Positions 11,814 through 17,267 of a stretch of 64,000 nucleotides of DNA are shown here, one piece after another. Every line of letters begins with the position of its first letter. Position 1 is the first letter of the stretch. The notes beneath the pieces are model-generated. The model did not search any database and had not been told where the DNA came from. It was given only the letters and a program-made list of their open reading frames with translations. The position numbers and the translations under genes were made by a program. Source of the stretch: Candidatus Planktophila sp. (GTDB lineage: Bacteria > Actinomycetota > Actinomycetes > Nanopelagicales > Nanopelagicaceae); assembly GCA_030649935.1 (NCBI GenBank), contig JAUSFN010000001.1:1-64000 (forward strand), read 5' to 3'.

Positions 11814-12764
11814 ATGAGCGCACGTAACCAATCACTCTCACCCATCGATCGCTCGAGCGAACTGCGTATCGATTCGGCTCAATTAGCCCTGCTCTGGCAA
11901 TCTGCACAGATTCTGCCTCTGATTGAAGGTCATATTGGCGCTGATGAGGAGCAACTCAGATTTCTAACTGCCGAAAGTGTGGAAACCCTATTGGTCTCTT
12001 TTGAAATTGGCGAACGATATTTCTTAGGTTTGGCTCGCGATGGCGGTCAAGCGTTTTTTGCATGGCGCACATCCTGGATCAATGAGCCAGTTAATGAGGA
12101 CATTAAATTTGAGGGCTTTAAAACTTTGCGTGAAGTCGGCGGAAGTTTGAGCGAGGTAGATTTAACTTTGGCAATGCATGCAGTGGGTTTAGGAAATTGG
12201 CATGCAAAGCATCCTCGATGTTCGCAGTGCGGGGCTGAAACGATAAGTGATTTAGGTGGAAGTGTGAGGGTTTGTTCAGTCGATTCGTCGCAACATTATC
12301 CACGGACTGACCCAGCGGTTATTGTCCTGGTTAAAGATGCCGCAGATCGAATCTTGCTCGGACATCAAAGCATTTGGCCTGAAAAACGTTTTTCAACTTT
12401 TGCCGGCTTTGTTGAACCTGGCGAATCTTTTGAAGAGTGTGTATCACGTGAAGTCTTTGAAGAGGCCGGTGTTTACTGCAACGATATTAATTATTTAGCA
12501 TCTCAAGCGTGGCCATTTCCGGCTTCAATCATGATCGCATTTGAAGCAATTACCGATCATCCAGATACCGCCAAGGCCGATGGAGTTGAAATTACCGAGA
12601 TAGCTTGGTTTAGTCGAAATGAAATGAAAAGCGCTATCGCATCTGGTGCATTGCTTCTACCGCCAACAATTTCAGTTGCGCGTAAGATGATTACGGGTTG
12701 GTACACCGCCGCTCCTGGCTATGAAGTTGCGGACTTAAAAAGCACCGAGGCGTGGAGACCGTGA
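11814..12764 (+). CDS. nudC: NUDIX NAD(+) diphosphatase/decapping-type NudC
   Basis: CSQCGAET, HYPRTDPAVIVLV, NUDIX box GFVEPGESFEECVSREVFEEAGV, followed by ASQAWPFPASIM. Confidence 0.92.
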   Translation: MSARNQSLSPIDRSSELRIDSAQLALLWQSAQILPLIEGHIGADEEQLRFLTAESVETLLVSFEIGERYFLGLARDGGQAFFAWRTSWINEPVNEDIKFEGFKTLREVGGSLSEVDLTLAMHAVGLGNWHAKHPRCSQCGAETISDLGGSVRVCSVDSSQHYPRTDPAVIVLVKDAADRILLGHQSIWPEKRFSTFAGFVEPGESFEECVSREVFEEAGVYCNDINYLASQAWPFPASIMIAFEAITDHPDTAKADGVEITEIAWFSRNEMKSAIASGALLLPPTISVARKMITGWYTAAPGYEVADLKSTEAWRP

Positions 12765-14434
12765 GCAACGATCTTCGTGCCGAAGAGATTCTTGAAGCTC
12801 TAGATAACGAGCAGCGCGCCGTTGCTCTGGCATCAAGCGGACCTGTATGTGTAATCGCGGGGGCGGGAACTGGCAAAACACGGGCGATTACACATCGCAT
12901 TGCCTACGCCGCAGCTATAGGAGTAATGGATCCACATAAGGTTTTAGCCCTGACATTTACCGCACGTGCAGCCGGCGAAATGCGTATGCGCCTTCGTTCA
13001 CTAGGCGTTCCGGCGGTGGCCGCCCGCACTATTCATGCAGCAGCCTTAAAACAGGTTACTTTTTTTTGGCCGCAAGTCTTTGGTGGTCGTACCCCGGACT
13101 TGATTACAACTAAAACAAGTTTTATCACCGAGGCGATTAAGCGAGCTGAATTAACAAGCGAACTTTCCATTACTTCGCGCGATTTAATCCGCGATATCGC
13201 ATCGGAAATCGAGTGGGCCAAGGTTTCACAAGTTGCACCTGCTGATTATTTATCTGAACTTGGTAAACGCCCAGTAAGGCCACGTATTAACGCCGAACAA
13301 GTAGCAAAGGTTTATACGGCGTATGAATCGGTTAAGCAGCAAGAGCGCGCAATGGATTTTGAAGATGTGCTGCTGTTAACAACTGCGATGATAGAACAAG
13401 AGCGCGAAGTTCGCGAACGCATTCAAGATCAATACCGTTTCTTTACAGTAGATGAGTATCAGGATATTTCTCCACTTCAGCAACGACTCATTAATGCATG
13501 GCTTGGTCCGCGCCAAGAAATCTGTGTCGTTGGCGATCCTGCACAGACTATTTACTCTTTTGCCGGTGCAACCCCGGTTTTTCTCAACTCATTCACTAAT
13601 CGTTTTCCTGAGGCTGAAGTTGTGCGCTTAACTACTGGCTATCGCTCAACGCCTGAAATCACTTTCATGGCCAATAGCATTTTGCGCAAATCACAAATGG
13701 GCCAAGAGTTAGTGGCACTCAATGACCACGGAGAAAAACCTTCGGTGGATGCTTTCAAAGATGATAGTTCTGAAATCGCAGGTATTGTTGACTGGATTAA
13801 AGGGTTATTGAGCCAAGGAACACCAGCGCAAGAGATTGCAGTGCTTGCTCGAACTAATAGCCAACTCAATTCCATCGAGCGCGCAATGAATACTGCAAAG
13901 CTGCCGTATCAAATTAGAAACAGTGAGAGATTTTTTGACCGTTCAGACGTGCGAGAGTTCTTAAAGTTAGTGCGAAACGCCTCCGTGATACCAACCCAAG
14001 GTGTTTCCTGGTTAGACGAGCTACGCACATTGGCACAGCCTTTCTTAACTGGTGCTCACATCGATGGAATCGCAGCCCTGCTGCATCTAGCACGTGAATT
14101 AGATGGCGATAATGGTTTTACTCCAAAAAATCTTCGCACATATTTGCGTGAACTCGAAGATCGCGTTCAACAAAATAATCCACCAACAATGCCGGTAACT
14201 ACCCTTGCAACCCTGCACGCAGCAAAAGGTCTTGAATGGGAGCGAGTATTTTTGATGGGGGTTAGTGAAGGCTTATTACCCCTCGAAAACTCATCGACCA
14301 CTAATGATCAGGCTTCTATCGATGAGGAGCGGCGCCTGTTTTACGTGGGAATCACGCGTGCCAAGGTCGATTTACACCTGAGCTATAGCGGAAAGCCTTC
14401 GCGTTTTCTTATTGAGGCAGGGCTTATCTCCTAG
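12752..14434 (+). CDS. uvrD2: UvrD2-like ATP-dependent DNA helicase lacking the HRDC/tetracysteine tail
   Basis: VIAGAGTGKTRAITHRI, VDEYQDISPLQ, GDPAQTIYSFAGA, LHAAKGLEWERVFLMG, VGITRAK. ORF ends soon after motif VI. Position between nudC and whiB7-like matches mycobacterial uvrD2. Confidence 0.85.
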   Translation: METVSNDLRAEEILEALDNEQRAVALASSGPVCVIAGAGTGKTRAITHRIAYAAAIGVMDPHKVLALTFTARAAGEMRMRLRSLGVPAVAARTIHAAALKQVTFFWPQVFGGRTPDLITTKTSFITEAIKRAELTSELSITSRDLIRDIASEIEWAKVSQVAPADYLSELGKRPVRPRINAEQVAKVYTAYESVKQQERAMDFEDVLLLTTAMIEQEREVRERIQDQYRFFTVDEYQDISPLQQRLINAWLGPRQEICVVGDPAQTIYSFAGATPVFLNSFTNRFPEAEVVRLTTGYRSTPEITFMANSILRKSQMGQELVALNDHGEKPSVDAFKDDSSEIAGIVDWIKGLLSQGTPAQEIAVLARTNSQLNSIERAMNTAKLPYQIRNSERFFDRSDVREFLKLVRNASVIPTQGVSWLDELRTLAQPFLTGAHIDGIAALLHLARELDGDNGFTPKNLRTYLRELEDRVQQNNPPTMPVTTLATLHAAKGLEWERVFLMGVSEGLLPLENSSTTNDQASIDEERRLFYVGITRAKVDLHLSYSGKPSRFLIEAGLIS

Positions 14435-14470
14435 CTTTTTTGGCAGATTTCGGAGAATTCGCGAAATCGG

Positions 14471-14510
14471 TTTAATTAAGTTGCGAATTCATCGACGCAT
14501 GCTTTACTCT
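14471..14510 (+). promoter_or_regulatory. Putative autoregulated promoter of the whiB7-like gene
   Basis: AT-rich TTTAATTAAG at 14471-14480 abuts -35-like TTGCGA (14481-14486); -10-like TACTCT (14505-14510), 18-nt spacer. Same arrangement as known WhiB7 target promoters. Confidence 0.5.
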
Positions 14511-14565
14511 TGCTACTCCTACATTTCTTGGCGAAATGAGGGTGGATGGAAAGGGAGAAACGAAT

Positions 14566-14724
14566 ATGTCTAACGCATCATTCGTAACAGCAAGCGCTTC
14601 GCGTTCTGCTGCACTCACTTCTGTCCACACAACCAATAATCGCGGCTCTTGGCATACCTCAAAGCCTGCATTTTACGCAGCGTTTTATGCCGGATACGAA
14701 GCCACTTGGGGTTCTACTCGATAA
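14566..14724 (+). CDS. Small upstream ORF (52 aa), putative leader peptide of the whiB7-like gene
   Basis: ATG at 14566 preceded by AAGGGAGAAA; MSNASFVTASASRSAALTSVHTTNNRGSWHTSKPAFYAAFYAGYEATWGSTR*; followed 20 nt later by the terminator stem. Confidence 0.65.
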   Translation: MSNASFVTASASRSAALTSVHTTNNRGSWHTSKPAFYAAFYAGYEATWGSTR

Positions 14725-14744
14725 CATCGAAAAAGAACTAGAAG

Positions 14745-14784
14745 CCAAGGGCCTCGAATCCACACAGGATTCGGGCCCTTTTTC
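14745..14784 (+). terminator. Intrinsic terminator/attenuator between uORF and whiB7-like gene
   Basis: AAGGGCCTCGAATCC (14747-14761) pairs with GGATTCGGGCCCTT (14767-14780), 14 bp with one bulged T, followed by a T-tract. Confidence 0.85.
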
Positions 14785-14873
14785 ATTACCCGAATACATC
14801 TAACTAAAAACAATCAAGAACTAACTAGGAAGAACCGGAGCACTACCTAACAGTAAAACGTTAGCCAACAGAG

Positions 14874-14904
14874 AGACCAGAAACTACAAAAGACCAGAAA
14901 CTAC
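14874..14904 (+). repeat. 14-bp direct repeat (period 17) in the whiB7-like leader
   Basis: AGACCAGAAACTAC at 14874-14887 and 14891-14904. Confidence 0.9.
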
Positions 14905-14925
14905 GAGAGAGAAGAGGTGAGGACG

Positions 14926-15351
14926 ATGAGCGTTCTCTTCAGCGAACTATTAGTACCAGGCTGGGCAGAGGAGAAGATCGGTTTGGATGCCGTAACCGGC
15001 ACTCATAACGATGGCTCATCATTTAATTTGCCCTGCCACACTGCAGATCCTGAGATGTACTTCTCCGAAGATGAGTTAGCTGTTGCAGAGGCTAAGTCGC
15101 TCTGTGGTGGGTGTCCCGTGCGCACTCAGTGTTTAGAGGGTGCGCTATCGCGCAAAGAGCCAGCTGGTGTATGGGGTGGAGAGTTATTTGGAGATGGTCG
15201 TGTTATTGCACGCAAACGCAAAGCAGGTCGCCCAACAGCGATCGAAGTTGCAGCGCGCGATGTAAACGCACCAATAACAAGTATTACTACTTCGTTAGAG
15301 ATCTCTTCTCCTGTTTCTAGCCAAGCGATAAGCGAAGAGAGTGCGGCTTAA
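14926..15351 (+). CDS. whiB7: WhiB-family Fe-S transcription factor, WhiB7-like with AT-hook
   Basis: Cys pattern C...CGGCPVRTQC, G(V)WGGE motif, basic GRP AT-hook-like tail (ARKRKAGRPTA), adjacency to uvrD2. ATG at 14926 has GAGGTGAGG upstream; the track start is GTG 14917. Confidence 0.8.
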   Translation: MSVLFSELLVPGWAEEKIGLDAVTGTHNDGSSFNLPCHTADPEMYFSEDELAVAEAKSLCGGCPVRTQCLEGALSRKEPAGVWGGELFGDGRVIARKRKAGRPTAIEVAARDVNAPITSITTSLEISSPVSSQAISEESAA

Positions 15352-15446
15352 TTTGGCGTCATCGTGCGTTACTAACGGAGAATTTCATATAGTCCAGCGC
15401 TAATATGTCCCTAGTTTCTCCGTGAGGTCAACAACAAAATCGGGGG

Positions 15447-17267
15447 TTGCCCATGCAGGAGTTCACAGATTTTCTAGCTAAGCAACCACCTTTCGACGCC
15501 CTGCCCACAGATGACATCGAGCGCTTAGCGAGCAAAGTTGAAGTCGAATACTTCGGCCTTGGAACGGTTATTGTCACCGCCGGATCAGAGCCTCTAGATC
15601 ATATTTATATGGTTAGAACAGGATCGGTAGAGGTATTAGATCGCGGAAATCTTGTAGATCTACTTGGACCGGGCGATGCTTTCGGACATATTTCTCTCTT
15701 GACTGGCTTACCACCACAGTTTTCTGTTCGTGCCGCCGAGGATACATTGTGTTATCGCCTACCAGATCCACGTTCAATCGTTCAAGATGCTTCTGCTTTA
15801 GCGTTTAATCATTTTGGCACTTTGGTAACTCGTCATCGCCTCACGGCCAGTGCTCTTATGTCAGATGCCCAATCAAATGTGGTTCGTTACATGCGCACGA
15901 TTATTTGGTGTGATGCTTCAGCATCCGTGCGTGAAGTTGCCAAAGATATTACTGATTCCGACCAATCGTGTGCGTTGATTCGTTCCGGAGATGAATTAGG
16001 TCTGGTAACAGATCGCGACTTTCGTAGTCGTGTAGGAGTTGGCGAGGTGAGTATTGATGCGCCAGTGCGCGCGATTATGAGTACGCCGATAATAACGGTG
16101 CCAAAAACCACCACGCTCGCTGCAGCATTTTTACTCATGGTTGAAGCAGGCGTGCATCACCTGGTAGTAATTGATGAGTACGAGAAACCGATTGGCATTG
16201 TGCGGGCGATGGACTTAGCCTCCGTTGAGCTTCGGAATCCCCTATTAATTCGCGGGGCAATCGAATCTGCTCATAACATCGAAGAACTTTCTAGCGCATC
16301 TCGTCTTTTATTGCCATCATTAGTTGAATTGCATGACTCGGGGATTCCTGCGCTACATGTTGGCGGGTTAATGTCCGCCATCGTCGGAGCAATTCTCGTT
16401 CGACTTCTCAAACTCTCTGACTCAATCGAATCTCCAGTAGCCCACTCTTGGCTCATGCTTGGATCAATGGCACGCGGAGAGCCGTTACCAATTTCTGATG
16501 TCGACACGGCAATTGTTTGGGCCGATCTTGCTGATTCAATTGACCCGGCAGAGGAGATTCAAAGAAATGCCAAGCAGATTCTTGATCAGATGGAGCTATG
16601 CGGGCTCCACCGCTGCCCCAATGGAGCCAATGCAGATAATCTACTTTTTACCCGTTCTAAATCCTCTTGGATTGAAGTATCAAGCGGTTGGTTAACCGAC
16701 CCGACAAGAGCCGGGGCGCTACTTTTGTCATCCATAGCAGCAGATAGCCAACCGCTCACACAATTGGCATTAGGTCGCACAATTACCGACACGATTCGGG
16801 CCACAACGCGCAGCAATGAATTTTTAGGAGCGTTGCTGCGTTTTACCTTGGCGAAGAAACCGCCGATTGGGTTTGTCCGCGGATTTGTTGTAGATCAATC
16901 GGGGGAACATCGCGGCGATTTAGATTTGAAGGCGGGTGGATTAACTCCGATCTGTGCGCTTGCTCGTTGGCTTGCCATTGCACAAGGTGACGTTCGAGGT
17001 AGCACTATTGATCGATTGAAGCGAGCGGCTTCGGCCGGATTATTGAGAGATGAAGAGGCCGACATTCTTATAAATGCATTTAAAGATATTTATCAATTGG
17101 TCTTTGAGGCCGAAATTGCTGCAATTCGTGGAGGGAGAGAAGGCTCAAGTTGGATATCTCCTCAAAATCTTGATTCACTTACGCGTCGACATCTGCGTGA
17201 ATCTTTTCGAGCCGTATCGGCTATCCAAACTCGCTTTCACAATGAGTGGGAAACGAGGTTAGGTTGA
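15447..17267 (+). CDS. cNMP-binding/CBS/DUF294 nucleotidyltransferase-like protein
   Basis: Cyclic-nucleotide-binding-type N-terminus, CBS pair (SCALIRSGDELGLVTDRDFRSRV... HHLVVIDEYEKPIGIV), nucleotidyltransferase motif GSMARGEPLPISDVDTAIVW. Confidence 0.88.
   Translation: MPMQEFTDFLAKQPPFDALPTDDIERLASKVEVEYFGLGTVIVTAGSEPLDHIYMVRTGSVEVLDRGNLVDLLGPGDAFGHISLLTGLPPQFSVRAAEDTLCYRLPDPRSIVQDASALAFNHFGTLVTRHRLTASALMSDAQSNVVRYMRTIIWCDASASVREVAKDITDSDQSCALIRSGDELGLVTDRDFRSRVGVGEVSIDAPVRAIMSTPIITVPKTTTLAAAFLLMVEAGVHHLVVIDEYEKPIGIVRAMDLASVELRNPLLIRGAIESAHNIEELSSASRLLLPSLVELHDSGIPALHVGGLMSAIVGAILVRLLKLSDSIESPVAHSWLMLGSMARGEPLPISDVDTAIVWADLADSIDPAEEIQRNAKQILDQMELCGLHRCPNGANADNLLFTRSKSSWIEVSSGWLTDPTRAGALLLSSIAADSQPLTQLALGRTITDTIRATTRSNEFLGALLRFTLAKKPPIGFVRGFVVDQSGEHRGDLDLKAGGLTPICALARWLAIAQGDVRGSTIDRLKRAASAGLLRDEEADILINAFKDIYQLVFEAEIAAIRGGREGSSWISPQNLDSLTRRHLRESFRAVSAIQTRFHNEWETRLG

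Follow-up and report, generated by a model that had tools for sequence, protein, structure and literature searches.

The whiB7 locus and the parts of its leader

The window analysed here is a stretch of 64,000 nt from Candidatus Planktophila sp. (positions 1 to 64,000 of contig JAUSFN010000001.1), and all features described below are on the plus strand. The whiB gene at 14926..15351 starts with the ATG at 14926 and encodes a product of 141 aa with four Cys residues, a GVWGGE turn and a GRP hook. The product matches the Pfam family PF02467 (Whib, E 1.6e-16). Its best matches in the PDB are Mycobacterium WhiB7 chains (E 5.3e-22), in an alignment that covers both the turn and the hook, and WhiB1, WhiB4 and WhiB3 rank far behind. 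This bears out the first-pass annotation, which had called the gene whiB7-like. The gene upstream, at 12752..14434, encodes a uvrD2-like helicase according to Pfam; it lies outside the switch and serves as a synteny marker. Of 100 family loci, 92 have the end of UvrD2 before whiB; the same order was seen in six of 60 stretches that are mostly from the outgroup and have short flanks. One genome of the family (G092, an assembly that is 81% complete with low contamination) has two near-identical whiB7 loci, L069 and L070, each with its own leader; this is either a duplication or an assembly artefact.

A uORF of 52 codons (MSNASFVTASASRSAALTSVHTTNNRGSWHTSKPAFYAAFYAGYEATWGSTR) is located at 14566..14724, exactly where it had been annotated, with its ATG at 14566 and its TAA stop codon at 14722-14724. 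The sequence AAAGGGAG precedes the ATG and the region of the ribosome-binding site (AAAGGGAGAA) is at 14550..14559, a purine-rich site that is kept in close relatives. Orthologous uORFs of 47-70 codons are present in nearly all of the 101 family leaders, and their stop codons are 10-23 nt before the terminator stem. Among 13 close relatives, substitutions in the uORF are most frequent at the third codon position (32, compared with 18 and 16 at the others) and pN/pS is 0.41 overall, falling to 0.11 in the WHTxKPAFYAAFYA stretch. Judged from its sequence the uORF is translatable, and we infer that it is translated. In the peptides of the family uORFs, Asp, Glu and Leu are strongly underrepresented, at 0.18-0.25 of their share in the proteins of the window, and Ala, Thr, Ser, Tyr, Trp and His are overrepresented.

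An intrinsic terminator is located at 14747..14783, with 14 bp, one bulge and a U5 tail, and its predicted energy of -24.2 kcal/mol agrees with the strong terminator that had been claimed at 14747-14784. The left arm consists of AAGGGCC (14747-14753), a bulged U (14754) and CGAATCC (14755-14761); the loop (14762-14766) is followed by the right arm GGATTCGGGCCCTT (14767-14780) and the U5 (14779-14783). All of the 101 family leaders have a strong terminator, identified by script except in L074, where it was identified by eye. These leaders include near-copies, and 89 unique regions were used in the arm comparison.

Promoter and 5' end of the uORF

A promoter with an AT-rich box (TTAATT-AAG-TTGC-N20-TACTCT) lies upstream of the uORF at 14472..14510. 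Its spacing is conserved: the motif TTAATT-N3-TTGC-N20-TACYCT was found with fixed spacing upstream of the uORF in 58 of the 64 family leaders tested. In the window, about 50 nt of 5' region with a ribosome-binding site precede the uORF. The uORF ATG follows the -10 element at a distance of 3-9 nt in 14 of the 58 leaders, which suggests that these uORFs are leaderless, a difference from the leaders of Mycobacterium and Streptomyces. Sister genera of those with a leaderless appearance have a uORF with a leader and a ribosome-binding site. The sensing uORFs are probably leaderless in several genera. A distance of 6-7 nt between the -10 element and the ATG was seen in L026, L028, L062, L065, L073, L075, L080, L096 and L102.

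The position of the promoter bears on a rival explanation, in which the terminator is constitutive and ends a short uORF transcript while whiB7 is expressed from another promoter downstream of 14784. The first-pass annotation had raised a start in that region as an objection to attenuation. The distance from the terminator to whiB, about 48 to 240 nt across leaders, is enough for a promoter. However, the only conserved promoter is the one that precedes the uORF with fixed spacing, and no conserved promoter was seen past the terminator. A promoter scan of the plus strand from 14300 to 15500 gave no promoter-like site, but the same scan also misses the conserved promoter. Additionally, the co-variation of the antiterminator described below would be without reason if the terminator were constitutive. 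We consider this explanation highly unlikely.

The TTAATT box is conserved and is located 3 nt before the TTGC -35 element. In Streptomyces, WblC binds 3 nt before the -35 element and the box is GAAAWY (PMC7157823); the place is the same, but TTAATT is found here instead. We regard the TTAATT box as a candidate for WhiB7 autoregulation. When the motif was searched with TACYCT or TAYYCT as the -10 element and at most one mismatch, there was a single match in the genome, at whiB7, and the motif occurs once in most relatives. Weaker copies with three mismatches were not enriched (71 compared with 66 in the reversed control). Taken together, the single match and the lack of enriched weaker copies mean that no WhiB7 regulon using this box can be detected.

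Alternative pairing and co-variation

The uORF codons for GYEATW (segment 1, 14692..14709) can pair with segment 2 (14745..14761), which from 14747 onwards is the left arm of the terminator. The helix has exactly the 15 pairs, two mismatches and one bulge that had been reported, and an energy of -19.7 kcal/mol. Pairing between the uORF tail and the left arm reaches -24.6, a value matched by eight of 2000 dinucleotide shuffles and, elsewhere in the window, by six of 1589 stretches. The fold of the leader from 14540 to 14800 has a z of -5.7 against shuffles.

The complementarity between segment 1 and the left arm could in principle be incidental, a by-product of peptide conservation and of a terminator rich in GC. 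The window leader taken alone is compatible with this, as the pairing of its synonymous recodings is almost equally strong (z = -1.1). The pairing is unremarkable here because GAAGCC stands where relatives have GAGGCC. Across the family the picture is different: in 41 of the 64 leaders the pairing is stronger than that of 95% of the synonymous recodings of the leader's own tail. Cognate arms have a mean of -23.9 kcal/mol compared with -20.2 kcal/mol for arms permuted among the 64 family leaders (z = -9.8), and the advantage was lost on permutation (0 of 20000). The same comparison gave z = -9.5 for 54 leaders that represent 28 other families of the class Actinomycetes. This test is free of alignment; since the leaders are related, its z cannot be read as a probability, while the recoding control applies per leader. 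Additionally, the segment 1 codons show less synonymous change than the rest of the uORF among the 13 close relatives (pS 0.13 compared with 0.28-0.36), as constraint on the RNA would predict. We give next to no credence to the by-product explanation.

The first-pass annotation had treated the alternative pairing as something that orthologous leaders should share, and they do. Between genera the two arms show compensatory changes, with CTTGG/CCAAG, CCTGG/CCAGG and CCCGG/CCGGG, and also GAGG/CCTC and GCGG/CCGC, as segment 1 and left arm pairs. RNAalifold on a MAFFT alignment, which is blind to structure, gave zero consensus pairs because the register of the helix slips by one base between genera. 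The leader architecture that had been claimed, with its uORF, terminator and alternative pairing, is confirmed as real, well beyond chance.

A further hairpin (P) is located at 14710..14739, between segment 1 and the terminator, where GGTTCT..TCGAT pairs with ATCGA..AGAACT and the uORF stop codon is at the tip. It is nested within the antiterminator and is compatible with both the terminator and the antiterminator states. Its arms co-vary, with a cognate versus permuted z of -8.0 in the family and -9.0 in the other families; TATCGG-NTAA-CCGATA is one example. We can only guess at its role, which might be faster closure of the antiterminator, pausing of the polymerase or the timing of release. 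The uORF, the terminator and the alternative pairing of the first-pass parts list all stand, but the list had overlooked this co-varying hairpin and the spaced promoter.

The same leader architecture is present in the 28 other families of the class. Outside the family the terminator is often AGGCCGCGGA...TCCGCGGCCT and the uORFs often end in AWSPPV. In genus g6, the leaders L145 and L146 have a uORF of 27 codons (MASTYHYVTVSHAAKTAFWYAMIPPTE) and a strong terminator, and no significant antiterminator pairing was found in them.

Predicted switching and relation to known attenuators

The behaviour of the leader was predicted with the ribosome modelled as a mask of 31 nt and the transcription intermediate as RNA ending at the terminator loop. 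Masking the uORF, a check that the first-pass annotation had proposed, did not flip the fold of the full-length leader, as the terminator prevails with and without the mask. At equilibrium the terminator is nearly always favoured in full-length leaders, so the switch must be kinetic, and it is visible only in the predicted co-transcriptional intermediate. For the window intermediate the predicted antiterminator probability is 0.86 when the RNA is naked and drops to 0.00 once a ribosome occupies the stop codon. In these predictions the antiterminator mostly survives stalls at codons 1-35 and is abolished by those at later positions. Across the 64 leaders, the antiterminator exceeds 0.5 in the intermediate in 51 when the RNA is naked, in 62 when the 5' part of the uORF is covered and in 16 when the ribosome is at the stop codon. 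In the model, a ribosome parked at the stop codon is thus an imperfect block in some leaders (16 of 64). In the naked fold of the window, the uORF stretch GGCTCTTGGCATA (14643-14703) pairs with the TATGCC...GAAGCC region (TATGCCGG...GCC). This stretch could act as an anti-antiterminator, and the predicted pairing is lost in some relatives, for example L046.

The stall profile also bears on what is sensed. The aromatic-rich tail of the peptide (FYAAFYAGY..W) had led to the alternative proposal of an amino-acid-specific attenuator that senses a shortage of Phe, Tyr or Trp, like the trp and phe leaders. Consistent with this, the family uORFs show an excess of Tyr, Trp, His, Thr and Ala and a strong deficit of Asp, Glu and Leu, and aromatic residues are often found directly before segment 1. 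However, the FYAAFY run of the window (codons 36-41) lies on the margin of the zone in which a stall frees segment 1, or outside it, which weakens the proposal. The exact aromatic motif also differs between genera, and what is under control is the gene of a general stress regulator instead of a biosynthetic operon. An aromatic-specific attenuator is therefore unlikely, and the predicted stall profile favours a general sensor of elongation.

According to PMC10727445, which cites Lee 2022 and Burian 2018, whiB7 genes of actinobacteria typically carry leaders of this kind, with an antiterminator built from overlapping uORF and terminator sequence. Attenuation of whiB7 and wblC by a leader uORF, which the first-pass annotation had taken as established in Mycobacterium and Streptomyces, is confirmed by PMC10727445; PMC11550727, PMC4128351 and PMC13393426 agree on this. 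The whiB7 (Mycobacterium) and wblC (Streptomyces) attenuator (Burian & Thompson 2018; Lee, Lee & Roe 2022; both as cited in PMC10727445 and PMC11550727) shares the uORF, the terminator, the antiterminator and the whiB7 gene with the locus studied here, whereas the terminator and uORF sequences of the window have diverged. Every structural feature of this attenuator that was tested is present in the window leader, as read from the DNA. The suggestion that the architecture may be undescribed in this lineage stands for the lineage: a literature search for Nanopelagicales with WhiB7, or for a whiB7 leader in the lineage, found no paper. It does not stand for the architecture, which is that of the known whiB7/wblC attenuator. 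No Rfam covariance model came near its gathering score in the window leader or in ten family and outgroup leaders.

Two other types of attenuator are similar in part. In the ABC-F and erm-type antibiotic attenuators (the uORFs of lmo0919/rli53, are5sc and tiaA; PMC12421871) a drug-stalled ribosome on the uORF likewise flips a terminator to an antiterminator. Those leaders control a resistance gene directly and often have very short uORFs, whereas here a transcription factor is controlled and the uORF has 47-70 codons. In Mycobacterium tuberculosis, the ilvB1 attenuator (PMC13236596) likewise forms its terminator when a ribosome that has reached the stop codon masks an antiterminator segment, but that leader has specific branched-chain codons and no such shared amino acid run is found here.

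The conserved and co-varying pairing, the WhiB7-like gene and the promoter upstream of the uORF all support the interpretation first proposed, and we consider it very likely that the leader is a translation-sensing attenuator of the whiB7/wblC type. Transcription would start just upstream of the uORF. With prompt translation to the end of the uORF, the ribosome would mask segment 1 and open the stop-codon hairpin while the terminator is being synthesized, so that the terminator would form and whiB7 would be off. A ribosome slowed or stalled within about the first 35 codons, the inducing signal presumably being an antibiotic or a shortage of charged tRNA, would leave segment 1 free by the time the left arm is made. 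The first structure to form would then be the antiterminator, in which the stop-codon hairpin is stacked, and the polymerase would read through into whiB7. The resulting WhiB7 would probably activate its own promoter.

A more far-reaching reading is that the leader is an RNA of three parts (antiterminator, stop-codon hairpin and terminator) found throughout the class, in which, owing to the hairpin, what is sensed is the ribosome reaching the uORF stop codon, and that the freshwater WhiB7 response has either been rewired or shrunk almost to WhiB7 itself. The last part is suggested because the recognizable promoter box is confined to the promoter of whiB7 itself. We put this reading forward tentatively and consider it doubtful as a whole.

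The uORF, terminator and antiterminator logic is already known from Mycobacterium and Streptomyces, and what is new is the lineage. With these data the known range of the translation-sensing whiB7 switch grows to include a freshwater lineage that is abundant and has streamlined genomes, and there is strong comparative support for the antiterminator and the stop-codon hairpin across the class. The leaders have no Rfam family and the present alignments could seed one. Finally, the finding raises the question of what job WhiB7 does in bacteria with genomes of 1.2-1.8 Mb.
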